From NCBI GenBank assembly GCA_015066665.1, contig SVNX01000003.1, positions 1 to 39,073 on the forward strand: a stretch of DNA of 39,073 nt, given 5' to 3'. The notes under the pieces are model-generated. The model saw only the letters and a list, made by a program, of their open reading frames with translations, was not told the DNA's origin and ran no database searches. Below are positions 3,678-27,138 of this stretch, piece by piece (the stretch's first letter is position 1; every line of letters starts with the position of its first letter). Source of the DNA: Ruminococcus sp. (GTDB taxonomy: Bacteria; Bacillota; Clostridia; Oscillospirales; Ruminococcaceae). The position numbers and the translations under genes are program-made.

Positions 3678-4478
3678 TTAATAGTACGAGAACAGATACT
3701 CGCAGGCGTCGATATAGAGATCGTTGATATCCCAGTCCGTGTCAGTGTAAGTGCCGCTGAAGCTTGCAGGACCTTCATTGACAACTGTGGTATTCGGATA
3801 AGTACCGATGGTGTCACCGTCATTTTCCACGCAGGCAGCGTAGGAAACATAACCATCCTGTACAACTACAAAATAAGTGTAGTCATTGATGGTGTCGAAA
3901 TATTTCTCACTCGTGGCATAGAATACATCTGCATCGCCGGGTACATTGATGTTCGCATCCGATTCGGAGCAGATCACATAGGTACCGCTGATGTTCATGC
4001 CCTCGGCATCCATTTCCGTAATCGTTGTGGAGTAGGAATTGAGGATTGTCTTGGCTGCTGCATTCACGGAAGCTTGAGTGGACTTGGCTGTGTAGCCGAG
4101 TATGGACGGAACGAGAATTGCAGCCAGAATACCGGTGATGGGCAGGCAGAGCACCAGCAGCACGATGATGATGATCACCACGATCAGTCCGACATTGGAC
4201 TTCTTCTTGGGCGCATTCATGTTCTGGTTCTGGTTGTAGTTCTGCTGATCGAAGGTCTGCTGACCATTCGGGTAACCGTATGTATTCTGTGCAGGCATAC
4301 CATATGTATCCTGTGCAGGCATACCGTATGTATCCTGCGCCGGTGTACCATATGTATTCTGGTTCGGAATGCCCTGATTCTGAGTCGGAACACCCTGATT
4401 CTGGGGAATATTCTGTTGTGTGCAGCCGCAGACCTCATTTTCACCCAGCGGTCTGCCGCAGTTCGGACAAAATGCCAT
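3678..4478 (-). CDS. Zinc-ribbon protein with Gln/Asn-rich linker and pilin-like transmembrane helix
   Basis: A 266-residue protein. The start at 4478 has GAAGGAGG upstream on the minus strand. Residues 1-20 form a zinc ribbon (CPNCGRPL, then CGC). Residues about 25-95 are a Gln/Asn/Pro-rich linker with repeats such as NTYGTPAQ and DTYGMPAQ. Residues about 103-135 are strongly hydrophobic and run into ILAAILVPSILGYTAKST, which matches the start of type IVa major pilins (AILAAIALP...). The remainder (about 130 residues, Asp/Tyr-rich) should be extracytoplasmic. No prepilin peptidase site (K/RG followed by F/M-TLxE) is present, so it is probably a membrane protein rather than an assembled pilin. 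It is monocistronic. Function unknown. Confidence 0.7.
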   Translation of the reverse strand: MAFCPNCGRPLGENEVCGCTQQNIPQNQGVPTQNQGIPNQNTYGTPAQDTYGMPAQDTYGMPAQNTYGYPNGQQTFDQQNYNQNQNMNAPKKKSNVGLIVVIIIIVLLVLCLPITGILAAILVPSILGYTAKSTQASVNAAAKTILNSYSTTITEMDAEGMNISGTYVICSESDANINVPGDADVFYATSEKYFDTINDYTYFVVVQDGYVSYAACVENDGDTIGTYPNTTVVNEGPASFSGTYTDTDWDINDLYIDACEYLFSYY

Positions 4479-4529
4479 AGTAAAAGCCTCCTTCTTCATG
4501 TGCTTTCCCCGCAGGAAAAGTATACTATT

Positions 4530-4558
4530 ATTATAAAAGAAATTCGCCGCAATTACAA
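4530..4558 (-). promoter_or_regulatory. Promoter of the zinc-ribbon gene
   Basis: On the minus strand TTGTAA (4558-4553) and TATAAT (4535-4530) are 17 bp apart, about 50 nt before the start codon. Confidence 0.75.
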
Positions 4559-4670
4559 GCACCTGAAGGCATTCGGCCGATATTTTCGGCATACCAAACA
4601 AAATCCTCCACATTCTTTGTGCAGGCTGACGGTGCTGATGCGGTGTTCCATTCGTGTGATGTTATGGGCT

Positions 4671-4703
4671 GAAAAACAGGGAACCCCGTAGGATTCCCTG
4701 TGT
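4671..4703 (-). terminator. Terminator of the thiol-redox operon
   Basis: On the minus strand ACAGGGAA and TTCCCTGT arms are followed by a T run, immediately after the thioredoxin stop codon. Confidence 0.8.
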
Positions 4704-4706
4704 GCG

Positions 4707-5018
4707 TTATTTCAGCAGTGCTTCGAGCTGTGCCTTCGGGCGCAGGCCGACAACGGTGTCCGTGACCTTGCCGTTTTTGAAGATCATCACGGTCGGAATG
4801 CTTGCAATGCCGAACTTTGCCGCCAGCTGAGGCTCGCTGTCCACATTGATCTTGCCCACCTTGACACGGCCGGCATATTCCTCTGCGATCTCCGCAATCG
4901 TCGGTGCCAGCATCCGGCAGGGACCGCACCATGTTGCCCAGAAATCCACCAGAACCGGCACATCCGATGCCAGTACCTCGGCTTCAAAATTCTCCGCTGT
5001 GATTGTCAGTTCTTTCAT
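4707..5018 (-). CDS. trxA: Thioredoxin
   Basis: A 103-residue classical thioredoxin. It has WCGPC at about residues 30-34 (active-site dithiol), the preceding DFWAT strand and the cis-Pro segment IASIPT, at normal family length. Two adjacent ATGs exist (5021 and 5018). The SD AAAGGAG is 7 nt before 5018, so the second is preferred. It is the last gene of the ccdA-tlpA-FTR-trx operon, 13 nt after the FTR-like gene. In this context it is the likely cytoplasmic electron carrier between the FTR-like protein and CcdA. No NADPH thioredoxin reductase is nearby. Confidence 0.93.
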   Translation of the reverse strand: MKELTITAENFEAEVLASDVPVLVDFWATWCGPCRMLAPTIAEIAEEYAGRVKVGKINVDSEPQLAAKFGIASIPTVMIFKNGKVTDTVVGLRPKAQLEALLK

Positions 5019-5034
5019 CATATTGCTCCTTTCA

Positions 5035-5235
5035 TCAGTCCTTGGATTTGTAATACAGCATGCAGTGGCAGAAGCCCTCAAAATCAGGATCCTTGATCTG
5101 CTCACGGAATTCACGGCAGATGCACTTGTTTTCCTCCGTGCGTTCCAGCCGGCAGGGGCAGTAGCCGCCCGTCTGCGCCAAGCCCTCCTTGATGGTTCTG
5201 ACCATTTCTTCATCGGGATTGAATGTGACTTTCAT
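5035..5235 (-). CDS. Ferredoxin:thioredoxin reductase catalytic-chain-like protein
   Basis: A 66-residue protein with three CxC motifs: CPC, CIC nine residues later, and CHC fifteen residues after that, followed by MLYYK. This is the FTR beta-chain signature, where the cysteines hold a 4Fe-4S cluster and a redox disulfide that reduces thioredoxin with electrons from ferredoxin. Plant FTR has CPC-X16-CPC-X8-CHC, so the spacing here differs, as in short bacterial members. There is a strong SD (AGGAGG, 8 nt) that overlaps the end of tlpA. No variable (alpha) chain is present. Its place between tlpA and trx suggests it feeds ferredoxin electrons to the thioredoxin. Confidence 0.85.
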   Translation of the reverse strand: MKVTFNPDEEMVRTIKEGLAQTGGYCPCRLERTEENKCICREFREQIKDPDFEGFCHCMLYYKSKD

Positions 5236-5239
5236 CTCT

Positions 5240-5791
5240 TTAACCTCCTGTCAGTTCCTGCAGATATCCTTCCAGCACGTCCGCAGACATGGCGCCGATC
5301 TGGGCATTCTGGATGGTGCCGTCCGCATCGATGAACACCGTCAGCGGCACGGAATACACACCATAGGCCTGCGAGGCACTGTATTCTGTATCGTAATATA
5401 CGGGGAAGCTGTAGCCGTTCTGGTCAATGAAGGCCTTCACCGACTCCACAGTTTCCCGCTGGCCGTCGGTCAGATTCACCATCATGAAGCCGACCTCGTC
5501 CTTGTATGCATGATAGGCTGCCTCAAAGGCCGGCAGCTCGGATTTGCACGGGCCGCACCATGTCGCCCAGAAATTCACAACCATGGGCTTGCCGGAAAAA
5601 TCGGAGAGCCGGACGGCCTGTCCCGCATCGTCCTGCACCGTGAAATCCGGTGCCGTGTTGACGGATTCGTTCTGCGAGCCGGTGTCCGTCTCGGGCTTGT
5701 ATTGCTCCTGCAGCACCCTGTAGGCTGCACCCGCACCGACCATGGCCAGAATGAGTATGCCGCCCAGGATGAAGATCATTTGTTTTTTCAT
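5240..5791 (-). CDS. TlpA/ResA-like membrane-anchored thiol-disulfide oxidoreductase
   Basis: A 183-residue protein. It has an N-terminal anchor helix (about residues 5-24), a short polar linker, and a thioredoxin fold of the AhpC/TSA-Redoxin (TlpA) type with FWATWCGPCKSE at about residues 75-86 and the cis-Pro segment YSVPLT. It acts outside the membrane and normally reduces protein disulfides with electrons from CcdA. ATG 5791 is chosen because GAGG lies 5 nt upstream; the upstream in-frame GTG at 5797 sits inside that SD. The SD overlaps the ccdA stop codon, so the two are translationally coupled. Confidence 0.88.
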   Translation of the reverse strand: MKKQMIFILGGILILAMVGAGAAYRVLQEQYKPETDTGSQNESVNTAPDFTVQDDAGQAVRLSDFSGKPMVVNFWATWCGPCKSELPAFEAAYHAYKDEVGFMMVNLTDGQRETVESVKAFIDQNGYSFPVYYDTEYSASQAYGVYSVPLTVFIDADGTIQNAQIGAMSADVLEGYLQELTGG

Positions 5792-5798
5792 ATTCACC

Positions 5799-6452
5799 TC
5801 ACGAAAACCATGCCATCACCGTGTTCATCAGGCCCAGAGCCATCATGATGCCGATGACGATCAGGAAAATGCCGCTGACCAGATTGATCACGCGGTAATG
5901 CGATTTGATGAAGCCGAACGCCCCCTGCAGCTGATCGATGAGCACCGCCGAGATCAGAAACGGCACGCCCAGTCCCAGCGAATAGGTGCCAAGCAGCAGC
6001 AGTCCCTGCAGTGCCTTGCCCGAGGTCGAGGCCATCATCAGTGCCGAGCCGAGAAATGCCCCTACACAGGGCGTCAGGCTGACGGAATAGATCACGCCGA
6101 ATACGAACGCAGAAAAGATGCTTGTGATTTCGTGCGTGTTCTGCATGCCCTTGAAGAAGGGCAGGTGAATGACTTCGAGATAATGCAGCCCGAAAATCAC
6201 GACGATCAGACCGCAGACAATGTTGACGACCGTGCTCCATGAGGCCAGTACCGCCCCGAGTGTGCCGGCAAAAAGCCCCAGCAGGCAGAATACCACGGTG
6301 AAGCCCAGCACAAAGCTCCCCGCACGCAGCAGCGTGTGGTGCTTTTTGTCCGCATGTCCCGCAAAATAGGAAATATACAGCGGCAGCATGGGCAGCATGC
6401 AGGGGGAGATGAACGAGATCATTCCCTCCAGAAATGTGATCAGATACTGCAT
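5799..6452 (-). CDS. ccdA: CcdA/DsbD-family transmembrane thiol-electron transporter
   Basis: A 217-residue polytopic membrane protein with about six hydrophobic helices. Two conserved Cys-Pro motifs are visible, SPCMLPMLP (near residue 18) and SLTPCVGAFLG (near residue 126). These are the paired redox cysteines of the CcdA family. The family moves reducing equivalents from cytoplasmic thioredoxin to extracytoplasmic thioredoxin-like proteins. The ATG at 6452 lies 7 nt from AGGAGG; an in-frame TTG at 6470 is less likely. It is the first gene of the operon behind a strong promoter, and tlpA, its presumed acceptor, follows after 7 nt. Confidence 0.9.
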   Translation of the reverse strand: MQYLITFLEGMISFISPCMLPMLPLYISYFAGHADKKHHTLLRAGSFVLGFTVVFCLLGLFAGTLGAVLASWSTVVNIVCGLIVVIFGLHYLEVIHLPFFKGMQNTHEITSIFSAFVFGVIYSVSLTPCVGAFLGSALMMASTSGKALQGLLLLGTYSLGLGVPFLISAVLIDQLQGAFGFIKSHYRVINLVSGIFLIVIGIMMALGLMNTVMAWFS

Positions 6453-6522
6453 CGGCATCCCTCCTGTCAAATAGTATGGCCGGAAATACGGGGCACGAAT
6501 CGCTTTTTCGTGTTCTGCTTTT

Positions 6523-6551
6523 ATTATAGCACATCAGCATGGGTTTTGCAA
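6523..6551 (-). promoter_or_regulatory. Promoter of the ccdA-tlpA-FTR-trx operon
   Basis: On the minus strand TTGCAA (6551-6546) and a consensus TATAAT (6528-6523) are separated by 17 bp, 70 nt before the ccdA start. Confidence 0.8.
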
Positions 6552-6736
6552 TAGGGGAAGCAGGGATTTCTATGATGGGTTTCCGCATGTTTTTCGCAGA
6601 ATCCGGCATTGTTTTCCGGTGCAGAATGAGGTATCATGAGAATGGAACAGTAAAATCGTCTGTAAACTATGAAATTGCATTCTGTGCAAAATTATGTAAT
6701 ATGATACAATATCTATGAAAAAAGTATGAAATTATA

Positions 6737-6765
6737 TTGACGCCGAATTATATCCGTGATACAAT
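6737..6765 (+). promoter_or_regulatory. Promoter of the pectate lyase operon
   Basis: TTGACG (6737-6742), a 17-bp spacer and TACAAT (6760-6765), 53 nt before ATG 6819. The 6552-6736 stretch upstream is AT-rich and gene-free. It contains a second TGATACAAT-like element near 6703-6711. Confidence 0.75.
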
Positions 6766-6818
6766 AGAATCAATAGAATGGATCAGTGTTCAGAAAGATT
6801 TTTTTGAGGTGAATTGGC

Positions 6819-9800
6819 ATGAAAATGACAGGCAAGAAAAAACTGGCCGCCTTCCTGACGGCCCTGACAGTACTTGCAGGCAGCGTGCCTGCTTCCGGTT
6901 ATTTGACAAAGGCACAGCCCGCAGAGGCCGCCGATACCGGCAGCAGAATTCTCGTTGACCTGAACAAGAATGACGGCCGAAAGGCCTCCTATGCAAGAAA
7001 TGCAAACAACTGGATCGTTACAGGCGAGACCAGTGCGACATACACCGTGAACGGTGTCACCATGGAGATCAGCGCCAGCGGCGGTTCCCTGCGTATGGAG
7101 AACAACAAGAAGCTCCAGAAGATGAGCGGCAATTATTCCCATCTGACCATGGATGCTGCCACAGTGGATGCCACCGGCGGCGGTACTCTGACGCTGAAGA
7201 TCAGCGGTCTTTCCAACGGCACCCACTCCGTGAAGACCTATCACAGTGCCACCGGCAATGAATCCGTCAGCGGCATTTCCGTCAGCGCCAGCGGCGGCAC
7301 CTCCCAGAGCGGCATCAGCTGCCCGAAGCAGGTGACACATCCGGACGATGCCGGCATCGGTTATGTGACCTTTACCGGCACTTCCACAACCATCACCATC
7401 AAGGCCGCCAGCGGCAATGCATGGCTCAATGCCTTTGAGATTGACGGCGGCGACCCTATCAAGGGCGTGAATCATGTGTATCCTGCCGATCAGGAATCCC
7501 ATCTCGAGCGTGAGAGCGGTCTTTCCTGGAAGGCCGGCAGCGGTGCCGCAAGCCACAATGTCTACATCGGCACAAGCTATGACGGCGTGTATAACGCCAC
7601 CACAAGCTCCGGTGAGTTCAAGGGTAACCAGACCGGCACAACCTATGCACTCGATGATACCTATCAGTCCTTTATCACCTATTACTGGAGAGTTGATACC
7701 GTGGACAGCAGCGGCAATGTTATCAAGGGTTCTGTGAATTCCTTCAATGTCGCAAGACTGGCCTTCCCCACAGCTGAGGGCTACGGCCGCTATGCAAGAG
7801 GCGGTCAGGGCGGCGTTGTTGTGCATGTCACCAATCTCAAGGATGACGGCAGCGAAGGCTCCCTCCGCTGGGCACTCTGCGATGCCAAGTGGCAGACGGC
7901 CGACTGGAAGGGCGTGCCGAGAATCGTTGTATTCGATGTCGGCGGCGTCATTGAGCTGACCGATACTCTCTGCATTCCGGATAATGCAGGTCAGGTGTAT
8001 GTGGCAGGACAGACCGCACCCGGCGACGGCATCACCCTCATCAAGCACGACTTCGGTGCAATGGGTACAAGTGATGTCATCATCCGTGATATCCGTACCA
8101 GAGTCGGCGATTCCAACGGCGTATCCACCGGCGGCAACGGCCTCTCCAGCTGCAACCACACCATCATTGACCACTGCTCGATCTCCTGGGCAACGGATGA
8201 GGGCTTCAGCTCCCGTAATGCAGCCAACATCACCTTCCAGTGGAACATCATCGGTGAGACGCTGAACAATTCCGTGCACTACCTCGATTCCGACCGTACA
8301 CAGACCGAGCGTCACTCCTTTGCCGCATCCATCGGCGGCTACACCGGCAGCTATCACCACAATCTGCTGATCCACAACACCGGCAGAAACTGGTCTCTCG
8401 CAGGTGCCATGGAGCAGGATGGTGTGACCTATGGCGGTCAGGCCGATATCCGCAACAATGTTGTATACAACTGGCGTGACAGAACCACCGACGGCGGCGT
8501 ACGCAGACTGAACTTCGTGAACAACTACTATAAGGGCGGCCCTGTCAGCAACACAGGCCTGCATGTGGTTTCCATCGACGGCAACGAGCTGGGAACAAGC
8601 GATATGCAGATGATGTATGTTTCCGGCAACGTCATGACAAAGCAGGACGGCACCTATGTGCTCAAGGCTTCTGATGATGCCTGGGCAGCCGGCAAGGCTG
8701 TTTCCGGCGGCAAGAATTCGACTGCTGCCGATGTCCGCAGCAATTCTCCCTTCTTTGATTCCTATGTGAATACACAGTCCGCAGAGGAGGCCTACAAGAG
8801 CGTCATCGCATCGGCCGGTGCCGGCGGCACCTCTCCGGCAGGCTGGGACTACATCGACAGCCGCTACATCAGCGATGTTTCCAAGAGCACTTACACCTAC
8901 ACCGGCAGCAAGGACGGCCTGAAGGGCATCATCGACAGCCAGAACGATGTCGGCGGCTACCCGAACAGCTCCAACTTTGCACACAGCAATGACGGTGTCT
9001 GCAATGCAGCAAACGATACCGACCGTGACGGTATGCCCAACACATGGGAAGAGGCACACGGCCTCAACCCCAATGACGGCTCCGACGGCTGCATCAACAG
9101 CCTCTCTCCGGACGGCTACACCAACGTGGAAATGTTCCTGAACGAGCTCTGCGGCGATGAGGTCAACTATGGTACACCTCCCGTGACCGGCAAGCCTGCC
9201 GCTGTCATCGAGACCGCACACAAGTATACCATCACCAATGTGAACAGCGGCCTGCAGCTCGAAGTGGCTGACGGCACCGCAGCAAACGGCACCAATGTAC
9301 AGCAGGGCACCACAGGTGCGGACGGCTGGACTGTGGAGGATGCCGGCAATGGCTACTACCGCATCTATTCCGAGCTGGGCGACGGCAAAACCTATCTGCT
9401 CGATCTCGACTACGGTAAGCCCGATAACGGCACCAATATCGGCATCTGGGGCGATACCGCTTCCGATGCACAGCTGTTCAAGTTCGTGGACAACGGTGAC
9501 GGTACCTATACCATCTGCACCAAGGCCACCACGGATGAGAGCTGTCTGGGCGTCACCTCCGGTTCGAAGGACGAGGGCGCCAATGTTGTACAGTGGGCCT
9601 GCAACGGCTCCGATGACCAGAAATGGACACTGGACATCAAGGTCGATCCCCTCAACGGCAGCCTCATCCAGAATCTGGTTGTCGAGAATCTGACCTACAA
9701 CAAGGCCTGGAACTATCAGTTCTGGGACATCGATACCGATCTCGCAGTGGGCGATCTGCTCTTCGGTGACAGACCAGCCACCTATTCCGTGATTCCGGAT

Positions 9801-10433
9801 GCACTGCTTGGCGGCGAAGCCATCCTCACATCCTGCGATCATAAGTATGCTTCCGGCACACTTGCCACCTTCACCGCCGGTGCGGATATGACCGTATATG
9901 CCGCATTCGACCAGAGAGTCACCACCCCCGGCGCATGGCTCTCTGACTGGACAAAGACCGATCTGACCGTAACAGGCAGCAATGACGTCATTTTCGAGCT
10001 CTATGCCAAGGAAGTTTCCGCCGGCGATACCGTGACACTCGGCGAAAACGGCCAGTCCGCATCCTGTGTGAACTATATCGTCATGGCCGTTGCGGACGAA
10101 GAGGAACCGACTACAACAGCGGAACCGACCACAACGCCCGAGCCGACAACCACACCTGAGCCGACCACCACAGCGCCCACATCCGAGGAGGTACCCACTA
10201 CCACATCCGATTCTGACCCGGATGCAGCGGACTACGGCAATGTCAACCTCGATACAAGCGTTTCCATTGTGGATGTCATCATGCTCAACAAGGCCATTCT
10301 GGGTGCCGAGACACTCAGTGCCCAGCAGAAGATCAATGCGGACGTCAACCTTGACGGCGAATGCTCGCCGGAGGATTCCCTCATCATCCTCAAGCACCTT
10401 GTTGACCTCGTTACAACACTGCCCGTTGCCTGA
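6819..10433 (+). CDS. Secreted multimodular PL1 pectate lyase with RICIN domain and type I dockerin
   Basis: A 1204-residue secreted enzyme, start supported by GAGGTG 8 nt upstream. Visible order: signal peptide (about 1-38); a beta-rich module of binding type (about 40-212); a fibronectin-III-like segment (about 215-312); the PL1 pectate lyase beta-helix (about 314-780, opening AEGYGRYARGGQGG and including VAGQTAPGDG and IDHCSISWATDE), with a Ca-binding-like DTDRDGMPNTWEEAHG near 731; a ricin-type beta-trefoil lectin domain (about 795-940); an uncharacterised module shared with the next gene (about 946-1090); a Thr/Pro/Glu linker; and a two-repeat dockerin (about 1139-1202). It should cleave polygalacturonate by beta-elimination and dock into a cellulosome. 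The next lyase starts 18 nt downstream. Confidence 0.92.
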   Translation: MKMTGKKKLAAFLTALTVLAGSVPASGYLTKAQPAEAADTGSRILVDLNKNDGRKASYARNANNWIVTGETSATYTVNGVTMEISASGGSLRMENNKKLQKMSGNYSHLTMDAATVDATGGGTLTLKISGLSNGTHSVKTYHSATGNESVSGISVSASGGTSQSGISCPKQVTHPDDAGIGYVTFTGTSTTITIKAASGNAWLNAFEIDGGDPIKGVNHVYPADQESHLERESGLSWKAGSGAASHNVYIGTSYDGVYNATTSSGEFKGNQTGTTYALDDTYQSFITYYWRVDTVDSSGNVIKGSVNSFNVARLAFPTAEGYGRYARGGQGGVVVHVTNLKDDGSEGSLRWALCDAKWQTADWKGVPRIVVFDVGGVIELTDTLCIPDNAGQVYVAGQTAPGDGITLIKHDFGAMGTSDVIIRDIRTRVGDSNGVSTGGNGLSSCNHTIIDHCSISWATDEGFSSRNAANITFQWNIIGETLNNSVHYLDSDRTQTERHSFAASIGGYTGSYHHNLLIHNTGRNWSLAGAMEQDGVTYGGQADIRNNVVYNWRDRTTDGGVRRLNFVNNYYKGGPVSNTGLHVVSIDGNELGTSDMQMMYVSGNVMTKQDGTYVLKASDDAWAAGKAVSGGKNSTAADVRSNSPFFDSYVNTQSAEEAYKSVIASAGAGGTSPAGWDYIDSRYISDVSKSTYTYTGSKDGLKGIIDSQNDVGGYPNSSNFAHSNDGVCNAANDTDRDGMPNTWEEAHGLNPNDGSDGCINSLSPDGYTNVEMFLNELCGDEVNYGTPPVTGKPAAVIETAHKYTITNVNSGLQLEVADGTAANGTNVQQGTTGADGWTVEDAGNGYYRIYSELGDGKTYLLDLDYGKPDNGTNIGIWGDTASDAQLFKFVDNGDGTYTICTKATTDESCLGVTSGSKDEGANVVQWACNGSDDQKWTLDIKVDPLNGSLIQNLVVENLTYNKAWNYQFWDIDTDLAVGDLLFGDRPATYSVIPDALLGGEAILTSCDHKYASGTLATFTAGADMTVYAAFDQRVTTPGAWLSDWTKTDLTVTGSNDVIFELYAKEVSAGDTVTLGENGQSASCVNYIVMAVADEEEPTTTAEPTTTPEPTTTPEPTTTAPTSEEVPTTTSDSDPDAADYGNVNLDTSVSIVDVIMLNKAILGAETLSAQQKINADVNLDGECSPEDSLIILKHLVDLVTTLPVA

Positions 10434-10451
10434 ATAAAAAGGAGATAGATT

Positions 10452-13178
10452 ATGATCAAAGCATTCAAACGCTGCCTTGCGGCACTGACCGCAGGCCTGG
10501 CAGTGGCCGCATTCACACTGCCGGCTGTTCCGGATATGACGGAGCAGGCAAGTGCGGCTGACAATATTGTTGCATTTCCCGGTGCGGTCGGCGGCGGTAA
10601 ATATGCCACCGGCGGACGCGGCGGCGAGGTTTACCATGTTACTAATCTGAATGACAGCGGTGCCGGTTCCTTCCGTGATGCTGTCAGCAAGTCCGGTCGT
10701 ATCGTTGTCTTCGATGTCAGCGGTACCATCGAACTCAAGAGCAACATCGTCTGCCAGAGCAATATCACCATTGCCGGACAGACCGCACCCGGCGGCTCCG
10801 GTATTACCCTGAAGAACTACAAGCTCGGCATGGGCGGCGACAACATCATCTGCCGCTTCATCAGTTCCCGCCCCGGCCCCTATGCTGCCACCAGCTCCGG
10901 CAACGATGCCTGGGGCGGAGCCAAGGGTTCCAATTCCGTCATCGATCACTGTTCCATGGGTTGGACAACGGATGAACAGTGGGCACTGTATTCCAATAAT
11001 GAATACTATACCGTGCAGTATTCCGTCATCGGTCCCGCCGATTCCTGGGGCGGTCACAGCAAGGGTATCCATGGCTTCGGCATTATGATGGGTAAGGGCT
11101 ACTGTACTTTTGACCATAACCTGATCGTGCACAATGTGTCCCGCAACTTCCGCGGCAAGGTGGTTGGTACAGCAACGGCTGATTTTACTAACAATGTCAT
11201 CTATAACTGGGCCTACCAGACTGCCTATGGTACCATCGGACATGTTAACTATGTCAATAATACACTGAAGATGGGCAACGGAACCACCGGTGCGAAGTAT
11301 TATATCAATGTCGACAGCAGCACAAGCCCGGAGAACTTCTCCATCTACATGACCGGCAACCGCATGCTGAACAAGGATAATACCGTTTATGATGCCGTAA
11401 CAACCGACAACTGGAACGGCGGCGTCAAGGTGAAGGACGGCCTCGGCATTACTGTGGACTCCGTCAGAAGCAATTCTCCCTTCCAGACCATGGTGAACGG
11501 TGTGAATGTCTCCACTGCCACTACAGCAGAAAGTGCAGCCGATTCCTATGATCATGTGCTTTCCTATGCAGGCAATGGCATTGCTCCCGATCTGCGTACT
11601 TCCATTGACCAGCAGTCTGCAAACGAATGCAGAACCGGTACGGGCTACCATTCCGGCACGGCGACCTATGATGAAGCCACCTCGGATGAAAAGGCCAAGA
11701 TCGACAGCTACAAGATCCAGTGCGGCGTTGTTTATGACTATCCGGATCCGGTACTCCAGAAGACCATCACCGATAACGACAACGACGGCATGGATGATGA
11801 GTGGGAAGAGGCAAGAGGCCTGAATCCCAACGATCCCAGCGATACAAACGGCGACTACTGCGGCATGGGCTACACCAACATTGAGTACTACATCAATGAC
11901 CTGACCGTGGATTCCTTCCCGCCCGGCGTTGTGGAGCTGTCCCCCGAGACTGCACAGCTCGTGACTACATCCGCCTTCACACAGATCGAAGCGGAGAGCT
12001 TCTCCGCCCAGTCCGGCATCCAGATCGAGGATTGCCCCGACGGCGGCCAGAACATCGGATTTGTTGAGAGCGGCGACTATCTGCAGTTCAAGCGCATCGA
12101 TTTTGAGGATGGTGCCAAGAGCTTCACTGCACGCGTTTCCGGTAATGCCGCAGCCATGGAGCTGTATGTGGATTCGATGAGCACACCCGTGGCAACCTGC
12201 CAGTTTGCCGGTACATCGGGCTTCTCCGAGTATACGGATGTGAGCTTCAATATCCCCGCAATCACCGGCGTGCATAATCTGTATATCAAATTCACCGGCG
12301 GCGAGGGCTACCTGCTCAACATGAACTGGTTCACCTTCGGCAAGGATGCCATCCCGCAGAACGGCCGTCTGATCACCAATCTCCTGATCAATGATCCGAC
12401 CTACGGCACAAGCTGGATTCTGACCGATAATCTCCAGCTCGGCTCGCTCGTGTTCGGCGACCGTCCCGTTGTCTTTGCGGCACTCCCCGATGCCGTGCTC
12501 GGCGGCGAATATATCCGCACGGCCTGTGATGCCAAGGCATTTGTAGGTGATGCGGCGACCTTTACAGCAGCCGAGGACATCACCGTCTATGTCGGTCTGG
12601 ATGCACGCATCACGGCGATTCCCGCATGGCTCTCCGCATGGACACTGACAAGCGAGACCGCTGCGAACGACAATAACGTGACCTTCAATCTCTATACCAA
12701 GAGCGTCAAGGCCGGCGAGAATGTGACCCTCGGCGGCAATGAGAATTCCTATCAGTGCGTGAACTACACCGTCTTCGCTGTACCCGCAGCTGAAACACCG
12801 ACGGAAACGACCACGGAACCGGCCACAACGGAACCGCCTACAACCGAACCGCCTGCGACGGAATCCACCACCACGGAGCCGCCTGTGACGGAAACGACCG
12901 TTCCCGCTGAACCGGAGACAACGCCGGCACCGACCACAGCGGAACCCACGACCACGGAACCGGTCGGCGAAGAGATGTACGGCAATGTCAACCTCGATGA
13001 TACCGTTTCCATTGTGGATGTCATCATGCTGAACAAGGCCGTGCTCGGTGTGGAGACCCTGAACGCACAGCAGAAGATCAATGCGGACGTCAACCTCGAC
13101 GGTGAATGCTCGGCTGAGGACTCCCTGATCATTCTCAAGCATCTGGTGGATCTTGTCACCACCCTTCCGATCCGATAA
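10452..13178 (+). CDS. Secreted PL1 pectate lyase with CBM6-like domain and type I dockerin
   Basis: A 908-residue secreted enzyme, second in the operon, with AAGGAG before the ATG. Order: signal peptide (about 1-36); PL1 beta-helix (about 40-490, opening FPGAVGGGKYATGGRGG and including IAGQTAPGG and IDHCSMGWTTDE) with DNDNDGMDDEWEEARG near its end; a CBM6/35-type beta-sandwich (about 513-629, IEAESFSAQSG to LNMNWFTFG); the uncharacterised module also found in the previous protein (about 635-775); a Thr/Pro/Glu linker (about 780-840); and a dockerin (about 843-906) almost identical to its neighbour's. The two enzymes share catalytic family and anchoring but differ in carbohydrate-binding modules (RICIN versus CBM6-like), suggesting complementary pectin targeting. 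Confidence 0.92.
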   Translation: MIKAFKRCLAALTAGLAVAAFTLPAVPDMTEQASAADNIVAFPGAVGGGKYATGGRGGEVYHVTNLNDSGAGSFRDAVSKSGRIVVFDVSGTIELKSNIVCQSNITIAGQTAPGGSGITLKNYKLGMGGDNIICRFISSRPGPYAATSSGNDAWGGAKGSNSVIDHCSMGWTTDEQWALYSNNEYYTVQYSVIGPADSWGGHSKGIHGFGIMMGKGYCTFDHNLIVHNVSRNFRGKVVGTATADFTNNVIYNWAYQTAYGTIGHVNYVNNTLKMGNGTTGAKYYINVDSSTSPENFSIYMTGNRMLNKDNTVYDAVTTDNWNGGVKVKDGLGITVDSVRSNSPFQTMVNGVNVSTATTAESAADSYDHVLSYAGNGIAPDLRTSIDQQSANECRTGTGYHSGTATYDEATSDEKAKIDSYKIQCGVVYDYPDPVLQKTITDNDNDGMDDEWEEARGLNPNDPSDTNGDYCGMGYTNIEYYINDLTVDSFPPGVVELSPETAQLVTTSAFTQIEAESFSAQSGIQIEDCPDGGQNIGFVESGDYLQFKRIDFEDGAKSFTARVSGNAAAMELYVDSMSTPVATCQFAGTSGFSEYTDVSFNIPAITGVHNLYIKFTGGEGYLLNMNWFTFGKDAIPQNGRLITNLLINDPTYGTSWILTDNLQLGSLVFGDRPVVFAALPDAVLGGEYIRTACDAKAFVGDAATFTAAEDITVYVGLDARITAIPAWLSAWTLTSETAANDNNVTFNLYTKSVKAGENVTLGGNENSYQCVNYTVFAVPAAETPTETTTEPATTEPPTTEPPATESTTTEPPVTETTVPAEPETTPAPTTAEPTTTEPVGEEMYGNVNLDDTVSIVDVIMLNKAVLGVETLNAQQKINADVNLDGECSAEDSLIILKHLVDLVTTLPIR

Positions 13179-24375: not shown

Positions 24376-25572
24376 TTAGCAAAGATGCGGAAGGATGGCA
24401 TCAAAGATCCGGTCCGCCGTGTCTTCCTTTGACAGGCAGGGCAGCTCTTCAGCAGCGTCCTTTGTGATCAGTGTCACGACATTTGTGTCCGTACCGAAGC
24501 CCGCACCCTCCTGACGGAGAGAGTTCGCACAGATCATGTCCGCATTTTTCTTCACGAGCTTCTTGCGGGAATTTTCCAGCAGATGCTCGGTTTCCATCGA
24601 GAAGCCGCACAGAAACTGGTTTTCTCTGCGGTGCTCGCCCAGATACCCCAGAATGTCCCGTGTACGGGTGAGGGGGATCTGCATATCAGCGTCGGATTTC
24701 TTCATCTTCTGGTCGGCACATTCCGTCGGACGGTAGTCGGCCACGGCAGCGGCCATCACGATCACATCCTGTCGGGCGCTCACAGCTGTCACCGCACCGA
24801 ACATCTCGGCGGCACTCTCCACGTTCACGACCTTCACAAAGGGCGGCGGCGTGAGAGCGGTCTTGCCGGTCACAAGTGTGACCTCCGCACCGCGGAGCAT
24901 GGCCATTTTTGCAAGTGCATAGCCCATTTTTCCGGTGGAGCGGTTGGTGATGCAGCGGACGGGATCGATGCTCTCGCAGGTGGGGCCGGCGGTGATGAGC
25001 ACACGCTTGCCCGCCATGTCCTTTTCACGGGCGATGGCTCGTTCGATGTAGGAGAGCAGCACTGCTTCCGAGGGCATCTTGCCTTCACCCACATCACCGC
25101 AGGCCAGATAGCCGGAATCGGCGGGTATGATCTCATAGCCAAAGGAAGCAAGCTTTTTCAGATTGTCCTGCAGAATCGGGTTGCGGTACATGTTGGTGTT
25201 CATGGCTGGCGCAATGATCTTGGGGCAGGGGCAGGCCATGAGTGTGGTGGTCAGCATATCATCGGCAATGCCGCCGGCAATCTTGCCGATCACATTGGCT
25301 GTGGCAGGTGCCACGAGCACCACATCGGCCTTTTTTGCCACAGCGACATGCTCCACACTGTACTGGAAATTCCGGTCGAATGTGTCAATCAGACAACGCT
25401 GTCCGGTGAGTGTTTCAAAGGTGATGGGGGAGATGAACTGGGTGGCATTCTCGGTCATCGTCACGATGATCTCGGCGCCGGTTTTCTTCAGCGTGCTGGC
25501 CAGTCCTGCAATTTTATAGGCTGCAATGCCGCCCGTTACGGCCAGCACGATGCATTTTCCTGTCAGATTCAT
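24376..25572 (-). CDS. coaBC: Bifunctional phosphopantothenoylcysteine decarboxylase / phosphopantothenate-cysteine ligase
   Basis: A 398-residue bifunctional Dfp-type enzyme. The N-terminal flavoprotein half (about 1-185) has VTGGIAAYKIA, the catalytic His in EHVAVA, the PAMNTNM motif, and the active-site Cys in YLACGDVGEGKM. The C-terminal CoaB half (about 187-398) has ITAGPTCESIDPVRCITNRSTGKMG and the AAVADYRP motif, with the conserved Lys in QKMKK. It converts 4'-phosphopantothenate to phosphopantetheine in CoA synthesis. It overlaps coaX by 4 nt and ends the operon. Confidence 0.95.
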   Translation of the reverse strand: MNLTGKCIVLAVTGGIAAYKIAGLASTLKKTGAEIIVTMTENATQFISPITFETLTGQRCLIDTFDRNFQYSVEHVAVAKKADVVLVAPATANVIGKIAGGIADDMLTTTLMACPCPKIIAPAMNTNMYRNPILQDNLKKLASFGYEIIPADSGYLACGDVGEGKMPSEAVLLSYIERAIAREKDMAGKRVLITAGPTCESIDPVRCITNRSTGKMGYALAKMAMLRGAEVTLVTGKTALTPPPFVKVVNVESAAEMFGAVTAVSARQDVIVMAAAVADYRPTECADQKMKKSDADMQIPLTRTRDILGYLGEHRRENQFLCGFSMETEHLLENSRKKLVKKNADMICANSLRQEGAGFGTDTNVVTLITKDAAEELPCLSKEDTADRIFDAILPHLC

Positions 25573-26360
25573 GACGTTCCTCCTTCAGTGCGGACTTTCT
25601 TGTTCTTCTCGTAAATCAGCCGCAGTCCATGCAGAAGCAGCGTATCATTTACGGTAATCTCATGGAAGCAGTGCGGCACAACAGCATGTGCAAGTCCGCC
25701 CGTGGCGATCACAGCCGTCTCATAGCCCAGCTCTTCCCAGATGCGGTCGATCATGCCGTCAAGGCAGGCCGCACTGCCATAGAGAATGCCGCTGCGCATG
25801 CAGTCAACGGTGTTCGTCCCGATGATATGACGCGGTACCGTCAGTCCGATTTTCGGGAGCTGTGCGGTGCCGGAAACCAGAGAATCCAGCGAAATGCGCG
25901 CACCCGGCAGGATAATCGTGCCGACATAGGCACCCTCCCGATCGAGAACGGAGAGCGTGGTAGCCGTGCCCATATCGATCACAATGGCCGGCGTGCCGTA
26001 CAGTGCGGATGCAGCAACCGCATCCACAACCAGATCGCTTCCGACGGCGGCCGGATTGTCCATTTTCAGGTGCAGTCCCGTTTTCACACCGGGCCCGACA
26101 ACGAGGATCTCTGCATGCGTCAGCTTCTGCAAAGCCTTTTTCAGCACATCCGTCAGCGGCGGCACAACGGACGAGATGACCGCACCCTCCACTTCATCGG
26201 GCGAAATCTGATACAGCTCAAGGACAGCCTTGAAGCAGAAGAGATATTCCAGCTCGGTTTTGCGCAGATCGGTGGAAATGCGTTCGGTGAACCGGACTTT
26301 GTCTCCGTCAAGGCAGCCGACAACAATGTTGGTGTTGCCCATATCCACAGTCAGCAGCAT
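25569..26360 (-). CDS. coaX: Type III pantothenate kinase
   Basis: A 263-residue ASKHA-fold kinase. The phosphate-1 motif DMGNTN is at residues 6-11, the catalytic Asp is in AVGSDLVVDAVAA, and the phosphate-2 motif is VIDMGTATTLSV. The C-terminal TGGLA completes the adenosine-binding site. It phosphorylates pantothenate in a K+-dependent reaction resistant to CoA feedback (family knowledge). The SD AGGAGG lies before ATG 26360. It follows the degenerate paralogue by 1 nt and overlaps coaBC by 4 nt. Confidence 0.95.
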   Translation of the reverse strand: MLLTVDMGNTNIVVGCLDGDKVRFTERISTDLRKTELEYLFCFKAVLELYQISPDEVEGAVISSVVPPLTDVLKKALQKLTHAEILVVGPGVKTGLHLKMDNPAAVGSDLVVDAVAASALYGTPAIVIDMGTATTLSVLDREGAYVGTIILPGARISLDSLVSGTAQLPKIGLTVPRHIIGTNTVDCMRSGILYGSAACLDGMIDRIWEELGYETAVIATGGLAHAVVPHCFHEITVNDTLLLHGLRLIYEKNKKVRTEGGTS

Positions 26361-26361
26361 G

Positions 26362-27138
26362 TCACACCTCCTGTTGGTTCTTGGCGTAGATGATCTGCAG
26401 GCCCTTCAGCGGGAGCATCGCATCAATGCGGATACTGTGCCGGCAGTGGGGGATGATGGCGTCCGCCGCATCGCCCGTGGCAACGAGTGCGGTTTCATAG
26501 CCCAGCTCCTGCCAGATGCGGTCGATCATGCCGTCAATAGAGGCGGCATTGCCATAGATCACACCGCTTTTCATCGAATCGATGGTATTCGTGCCGGCCG
26601 TGCGGCGGGGCTGCGTCAGGCTGATGTTCGGCAGCTGAGCCGTCCCCCTGACGAGCGAATCCAGAGAAACCCGTACACCGGGCAGAATCGCACCGCCGAT
26701 GTAGCGGCCGTCCTGACTGATGACGGAAAGTGTGGTCGCCGTCCCGAGATCAATGACGATGACCGGCTCGCCGTATTCTGCCTTGGCGGCAACGGCGTCG
26801 ACGATCAGATTGCTGCCGACCTGTGCGGGCTGATCCATGCAGACGGGCAGCCCCGTCTTCACACCCGGATGTACCACGAGCACACGGATTTCTGGCGCAA
26901 TCTTGCCGATGGCCGCCTGCATGACATCCACCAGCGGCGGCACAACGGAGGAAATGACCGCCCCCTCAAGTGCCGCAGGGGCAATGCCGTGCAGTTCGAG
27001 GATGGTCTTGAGTCCGATGGCGTATTCGAGTTCGGTTTTCCGCAGATCGGTCGCCATCTGTTCGGTGAACAGGATGGTTTCCTTCTGAAAGCAGCCCAGC
27101 ACAATGGCGGAGTTGCTCATATCAATTGCCAGAATCAT
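26362..27138 (-). CDS. Degenerate type III pantothenate kinase paralogue
   Basis: A 258-residue tandem paralogue of the downstream CoaX, with similarity along the full length (for example ATDLRKTELEY and GAVISSVVPPL). Key positions have changed. The phosphate-1 loop reads DMSNSA instead of DMGNTN. The catalytic Asp position reads VGSNLIVDAVAA, with Asn encoded by AAT. The adenosine-binding TGGLA reads TGDAA. VIDLGTATTLSV is intact. The reading frame is undamaged and the SD GGAGGG is good, so it is expressed but probably poorly active or inactive as a kinase. It could form heterodimers with CoaX or act in regulation. Confidence 0.88.
   Translation of the reverse strand: MILAIDMSNSAIVLGCFQKETILFTEQMATDLRKTELEYAIGLKTILELHGIAPAALEGAVISSVVPPLVDVMQAAIGKIAPEIRVLVVHPGVKTGLPVCMDQPAQVGSNLIVDAVAAKAEYGEPVIVIDLGTATTLSVISQDGRYIGGAILPGVRVSLDSLVRGTAQLPNISLTQPRRTAGTNTIDSMKSGVIYGNAASIDGMIDRIWQELGYETALVATGDAADAIIPHCRHSIRIDAMLPLKGLQIIYAKNQQEV

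Follow-up and report, generated by a model that had tools for sequence, protein, structure and literature searches.

The DNA considered here (henceforth the window) is a stretch of 39,073 nucleotides from a Ruminococcus species of the family Ruminococcaceae (assembly GCA_015066665.1, contig SVNX01000003.1, positions 1 to 39,073), in which four adjacent genes on the minus strand combine a membrane carrier of thiol electrons with a relative of ferredoxin:thioredoxin reductase (FTR). In the order of transcription, these are ccdA (5799-6452), coding for the membrane thiol-electron carrier (217 amino acids, with Cys18 and Cys129); a tlpA/resA-like gene (5240-5791; 183 amino acids), whose product displays a WCGPC motif and a hydrophobic N-terminal stretch (residues 5-23) that is likely to be an anchor; a gene for a protein resembling the FTR catalytic chain and ferredoxin:disulfide reductases (5035-5235; 66 amino acids, CPC-X9-CIC-X15-CHC); and trx (4707-5018 or 4707-5021, with the start at 5018 or 5021), coding for a thioredoxin of 104 amino acids, again with WCGPC. 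All four reading frames are intact and are separated by gaps of 7 (ccdA/tlpA), 4 (tlpA/FTR), and 13-16 (FTR/trx) bases. The Shine-Dalgarno (SD)-like sequences of tlpA (GAGGTG) and FTR (GGAGGT) overlap the stop codon, or the last codons, of the gene before them, and that of trx (AAGGAGC) sits just past the FTR stop codon with no overlap; hence, the overlap with preceding stops that was originally predicted holds at two of the three junctions and fails at trx. Upstream of ccdA lies a promoter-like site (6523-6551, minus strand; TTGCAA, a 17-base spacer, and TATAAT with an extended TG), recognized purely as a match to 10 of 12 consensus positions. Single matches of this kind are weak, as the scan of 3800-7600 on both strands yielded 8 sites against 3.3 expected from shuffles; it placed no minus-strand promoter-like site inside 4707-6452. 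Downstream of trx, a terminator-like hairpin of 11 pairs followed by UUUU (4672-4701, minus strand; -19.8 kcal/mol) stands out against 200 shuffles (z -4.45), albeit it is absent from the listing of the promoter/terminator scan. The short gaps, the SD-like sites at each junction, the upstream promoter-like site, and the downstream hairpin with its U run together fit a single transcript, in line with the proposal of one ccdA-tlpA-FTR-trx operon in the original prediction, which was made from the sequence alone.

The same prediction had identified the 66-residue protein as FTR catalytic-chain-like with three CxC motifs, and on this point its Pfam score, its six cysteines, and its predicted fold all agree. 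The protein belongs to the FeThRed_B family (PF02943; 31.3 bits against a cut-off of 22), and its three CxC pairs (Cys26, 28, 38, 40, 56, and 58) are invariant across 50 aligned rows, although this invariance is partly built in, as the rows were gathered with patterns containing some of these cysteines. Its AlphaFold model (pLDDT 95.6) adopts the FTR fold, and the only two credible solved matches in a structure comparison are both ferredoxin:disulfide reductases. A single-sequence search of the PDB recovered 4tpu at an E value of 0.024, and a profile search of the same database with profile A2 returned one irrelevant match (E 0.8). Like the Methanosarcina acetivorans enzyme (4tpu), the Desulfotalea Grx-FDR fusion (7pwe), and the cyanobacterial and plant FTRs, the protein has three CxC pairs, the same fold by its model, and a thioredoxin beside it; it differs from them in its length of 66 residues, in the 9 and 15 residues between its CxC pairs, and in sharing an operon with an exporter of thiols across the membrane. 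In the plant-type FTR, the corresponding distances are 16 and 8 residues. By analogy, we take Cys28 and Cys58 to be the redox pair. No gene for the variable subunit (FTRV) is present within the operon, the part of the genome searched for it; FTRV is reported to be exclusive to oxygenic phototrophs (PMC9025218), and homologues of FTR with selenocysteine have been reported (PMC2398784).

The remaining three products fall into well-defined families. CcdA is a member of DsbD_TM (PF02683; 69.5 bits, cut-off 27.1), with Cys18 kept in 55/57 and Cys129 in 57/57 of the aligned CcdA proteins. The thioredoxin scores 117.3 bits against the Pfam Thioredoxin model (cut-off 23.5) and 132.7 bits against TIGR01068 (cut-off 96.8), which, with its WCGPC motif, makes it a bona fide member. 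The TlpA-like protein scores 98.8 bits against AhpC-TSA (cut-off 26), keeps both WCGPC cysteines in all 57 aligned rows, and combines a WCxxC thioredoxin fold with a predicted N-terminal membrane anchor, as expected of TlpA-like anchored reductases. It falls short of the ResA model (NF002854; 126.7 bits, cut-off 170), and judging from its sequence, we describe it as TlpA/ResA-like and do not assign it to ResA. The pairing of CcdA with an anchored ResA-like reductase is shared with the Bacillus CcdA-ResA/StoA systems, which act in cytochrome c maturation and in making the spore cortex and from which the present protein is set apart by its score below the ResA cut-off.

We surveyed the gene order around FTR in 80 named loci (the 80 that scored best among 581 confirmed relatives), in 41 loci from the family, and in 28 fetched loci from the genus. 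The family loci, with which the named ones partly overlap, derive from a survey with PF02943 (40 genomes plus that of the window) and not from all 52 genomes recognized by a subfamily profile, A1; the genus loci do not include one of the 30 matches, G666, which is a contig-end fragment. The order ccdA-tlpA-FTR is seen in 8/80 named, 2/41 family, and 2/28 genus loci. With duplicates merged (L180 with L293, L237 with L048, and L238 with L052, as recognized from the length of the contig and its gene layout), there are 10 distinct operons of this kind, that of the window included, in at least three genera; thus, the gene order, whose conservation the original prediction had proposed to survey, is kept beyond this genome. 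A trx gene comes next in five of these linked operons (the window, L052, L185, L293, and, across a gap of 295 bases, L294), and the other five are without an adjacent trx. The flanking genes vary among the linked operons inspected. Two loci were kept out of the count: L245, which has tlpA-FTR-trx without ccdA, and L198, the “TlpA” of which looks, on our own reading, like a peroxiredoxin.

Of the survey matches, 57 were fetched. In a tree of CcdA and TlpA with 57 rows, all 10 linked operons fall into a single 14-row clade (100/100), and none of the 43 rows outside this clade has a linked operon; bootstraps in this tree and in the FTR and Trx tree discussed below are unsettled. The tree omits L165 and L166 (too short), L169 (which gave no CcdA), and CcdA fusions of 430-500 residues. 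The share of 10/14 is inflated, in that L185, L203, L218, L227, and L233 were found via FTR; in the family sample drawn with CcdA, the share is 3/7. The other four rows of the clade are L134, whose genome has an FTR located elsewhere (L286), and L118, L119, and L120, to which we return below. As a separate observation, genes at L118:6916-7566 and L123:9861-10448, next to ccdA-tlpA loci and near rhodanese-like or trx genes, code for membrane proteins in which a cysteine region resembles Fer4_5 (a profile match in the case of L118).

Profile A1 detects FTR in 30/38 genomes of the genus (12/12 of high quality), in 52/247 genomes of the family, and, in a phylum survey, in 4/398 genomes, including that of the window; either few genomes beyond the family carry this FTR subfamily or A1 is too narrow to detect them. 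As a survey profile, PF02943 recovered only 41/247 family genomes, giving no match in three congeners that A1 scores at E < 1e-35, and its count was replaced by that of A1. As originally predicted for the window, FTR neighbors trx in most of the loci examined: the two adjoin on the same strand with a gap of <100 bases in 26/41 family, 52/80 named, and 25/28 genus loci. FTR domains were also found joined to other domains. In two genomes of one genus, the FTR domain is N-terminal on an M16C/PreP-like peptidase of about 1,030 residues (L062:3147-6242 and L070:6121-9204), and at L189:4987-6204, it is C-terminal on a URO-D-like protein, with trx next. At L236:4185-6098, an open reading frame (ORF) starting 12 bases past a trx gene codes for a pyridine-nucleotide disulfide reductase with a rhodanese domain and an FTR-like C-terminal stretch (by blastp and by eye), possibly an NAD(P)H-linked FTR. 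Other long FTR-bearing frames, at L181, L219, and L175, were rejected as fusions and look, on our own reading, like upstream read-through.

We recognized no NADPH-dependent thioredoxin reductase (TrxB) in the 77%-complete genome to which the window belongs, which is consistent with the originally predicted route bypassing this enzyme. Its only matches to TIGR01292 score 63.2 and 21.9 bits, the former lying in a GltD/NfnB-like ORF by our own reading; the same model gave matches in 14/14 control genomes, with 12 above the cut-off. Across the genus, 16/38 genomes have a TrxB match at E 1e-25; the best match reaches at least 194 bits in 12 of them and 92-96 bits, in 421-residue frames, in the remaining 4, so that 26/38 genomes have no strong match. 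Among the five linked-operon genomes searchable for TrxB, none was found in that of the window, G654, and G079, and it is present in G040 and G649. In the family, scored on up to nine candidates per genome, TrxB occurs in 33/52 genomes with FTR versus 162/195 without (Fisher p 9e-5, for related genomes and uncorrected for kinship) and, among those of high quality, in 22/38 versus 129/147. Thus, genomes without TrxB are the ones that tend to have FTR. At L130 and L132, from two genomes of one other genus, trxB lies one base upstream of ccdA-tlpA and FTR is found elsewhere in both genomes, as if the same export pair were fed by another source of reductant. These are the sole instances of TrxB beside ccdA, and the “TrxB/CoADR” group in the CcdA and TlpA tree is a loose one; the products labeled “TrxB” at L125, L127, L151, and L185 proved to be pyridine-nucleotide reductases with a rhodanese domain (by profile for L185 and by our own reading for the others).

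Taking these findings together, we propose as the probable function of the operon that of a reductant-export module fed by ferredoxin, with the presumed direction of electron flow being ferredoxin to FTR to thioredoxin to CcdA to TlpA. Reduced ferredoxin, the putative donor, would hand single electrons to a predicted [4Fe-4S] cluster of the FTR-like protein, which would in turn use its redox pair to cleave the disulfide of the neighboring thioredoxin. The latter, as the likely link to the export pair, would reduce CcdA at Cys18/Cys129 from the cytoplasmic side. Given the topology predicted for these proteins, CcdA would then move these electrons through the membrane as thiols, for the anchored TlpA/ResA-like protein to pass on to disulfides of putative targets outside the cell. 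A motif scan covering 832,688 bases (the window, 40 stretches, and three further loci), or roughly two fifths of this genome, detected one clostridial-type ferredoxin ORF; it gave no candidate for a c-type cytochrome or MsrA, absences that mean little for a scan of this extent with a choice of ORFs favoring antisense frames. Because no TrxB was recognized, FTR and thioredoxin most likely also constitute the general thioredoxin system of this genome, with export being one output of a ferredoxin-driven thiol pool.

The proposed chain resembles one that reviews describe for chloroplasts, where stromal thioredoxin, reduced via ferredoxin and FTR, feeds the thylakoid CcdA and then the thioredoxin-like HCF164 (PMC5566889, PMC3836485), with the CcdA step in this line being called indirect in one of them (PMC3836485). 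The statement in the original prediction that such a ferredoxin-FTR input was not described is therefore not supported. By function, the components proposed here follow one another as in the chloroplast line (ferredoxin, FTR, thioredoxin m, CcdA, and HCF164), and both end in a thioredoxin-like protein held at the opposite face of the membrane. However, the chloroplast line is driven by photosystem I, with HCF164 on the cytochrome b6f/lumen side, whereas the putative one here belongs to a fermenting bacterium and has its parts in one operon. The pneumococcal operons ccdA1-etrx1-msrAB2 and ccdA2-etrx2 couple CcdA to a TlpA-like thioredoxin at the cell surface, which is supplied by the thioredoxin of the cytosol, with electrons coming from NADPH via TrxB and going on to methionine sulfoxide reductase (PMC3914529). 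The window shares with them the presence of CcdA and a TlpA-like thioredoxin in one operon and differs in that FTR and trx are included. On our own reading, made with no Msr profile, msrAB does not adjoin the window operon, which is flanked by ORFs for a membrane protein with a zinc ribbon and for pectate-lyase-like proteins bearing dockerins. Ferredoxin-dependent thioredoxin reductases of both the FTR/FDR type and the flavin type are known from bacteria and archaea (PMC7278568, PMC6262447, PMC9025218, PMC10880999). In Clostridia, ferredoxin instead of NADPH drives thioredoxin reduction by FFTR (PMC10880999), a flavoprotein related to TrxB, whereas the protein here appears to be a small iron-sulfur protein of the FTR type; the words FTR and CcdA are absent from the main text of that paper. 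A literature search reaching few subscription journals found no report of a bacterial ccdA-tlpA-FTR operon. The parts are known, as is the chain in chloroplasts, and what is new is a compact, conserved operon in nonphotosynthetic gut bacteria that often lack TrxB.

The alternative that fares best, though we regard it as rather unlikely, is that FTR and thioredoxin are a housekeeping system merely cotranscribed with ccdA-tlpA, for instance for joint expression under redox stress, with no special tie of FTR to export; the export pair would then use any reduced thioredoxin available. Several findings lean toward it and weigh against a line dedicated to export. The plain trx-then-FTR pair without ccdA is the commonest layout, accounting for 24/28 genus loci, and the related ccdA-tlpA pairs at L118, L119, and L120 come from three genomes that have TrxB but gave no match to FTR. 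Moreover, in an FTR and Trx tree of 62 rows (with 12 hand-picked loci of the 80 named ones), 23 genus trx-FTR rows are split off by a branch (100/99) from the window, L293, and L294. No supported set contains the window; by path, its nearest rows are linked operons, namely, L052 from another genus (0.44), L293 (0.45), and L294 (0.47). In the genus, each of the three operon-bearing species has a single FTR match, the linked operon standing in place of the trx-FTR pair of the genus, and this, with the position outside the clade of the congeners, looks like the replacement of a general system. On the simplest reading of these sequences, the operon, or its FTR-trx half, would have come from another lineage and taken over from the resident pair, with differential loss of two old copies being the alternative. 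Either history suggests that the FTR-Trx of the operon serves the whole cell, and the originally predicted “dedicated” input is weakened accordingly, leaving the overall interpretation partly supported. A gene for a Crp/Fnr-type regulator directly upstream of the operons at L052 and L185 also speaks for joint expression; in L185, trx is followed by a rhodanese and a pyridine-nucleotide reductase with a rhodanese domain, neighbors that, with the regulator, hint at a redox-stress or sulfur context. Against mere cotranscription, the ccdA-tlpA-FTR order persists in at least three genera despite differing flanks, and in half of the linked operons it is FTR, without trx, that has stayed next to tlpA; both findings suggest that FTR is linked to the export pair.

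The same five operons without an adjacent trx could be read as a sign that FTR reduces CcdA directly, with no thioredoxin between them. We consider this quite improbable, as most loci pair FTR with trx, the models of CcdA in pneumococcus and chloroplasts have thioredoxin as the donor, and trx may lie elsewhere in those five genomes. An extended form, likewise improbable, is that of a nonphotosynthetic ferredoxin-powered thiol-export module in which FTR is the entry point to CcdA-TlpA, reducing CcdA directly, so that low-potential electrons from fermentation would exit the cytoplasm in the form of thiols with neither NADPH nor thioredoxin, and which would pass between lineages as a whole, ousting the thioredoxin system already present. 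Finally, that the FTR-like protein has a different role, for example with a class III ribonucleotide reductase or some other disulfide enzyme, and that its place in the operon is fortuitous, as might be suggested by a methanogen ferredoxin disulfide reductase presented in a title as an electron donor to the former enzyme and by the FTR domains joined to the M16 peptidase, the URO-D-like protein, and the rhodanese-bearing reductase (the FTR part of the last being discerned by eye), is very unlikely in view of the consistent trx neighborhood and of one clade in which FTR is linked to ccdA-tlpA time and again.

The reducing power for extracytoplasmic proteins is usually traced to NADPH via TrxB. 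If the proposed export of ferredoxin-derived reductant is correct, gut fermenters may instead pay for envelope reduction from ferredoxin, a carrier filled by fermentation, through a chain of the kind by which chloroplasts reach the thylakoid lumen, which would tie the repair of envelope proteins to the redox state of fermentation. The operon would also offer a compact nonphotosynthetic system for the joint study of FTR and CcdA, and it prompts one to ask if there is a bacterial counterpart older than the chain of chloroplasts.

Elsewhere in the window, our own reading of the ORFs suggests several further features. An ORF for a CobW-like GTPase with repeated His-rich HHHHEHGEDC units (600-1868) is accompanied by a second CobW-like ORF at 1819-2844. 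Two large ORFs at 6819-13178 code for secreted pectate-lyase-like proteins with dockerin-like C termini, and the 2,119-codon open frame on the strand opposite to them is probably an artifact of codon bias. Lastly, two tandem type III pantothenate kinase-like ORFs (25569-27138) adjoin a coaBC-like ORF.
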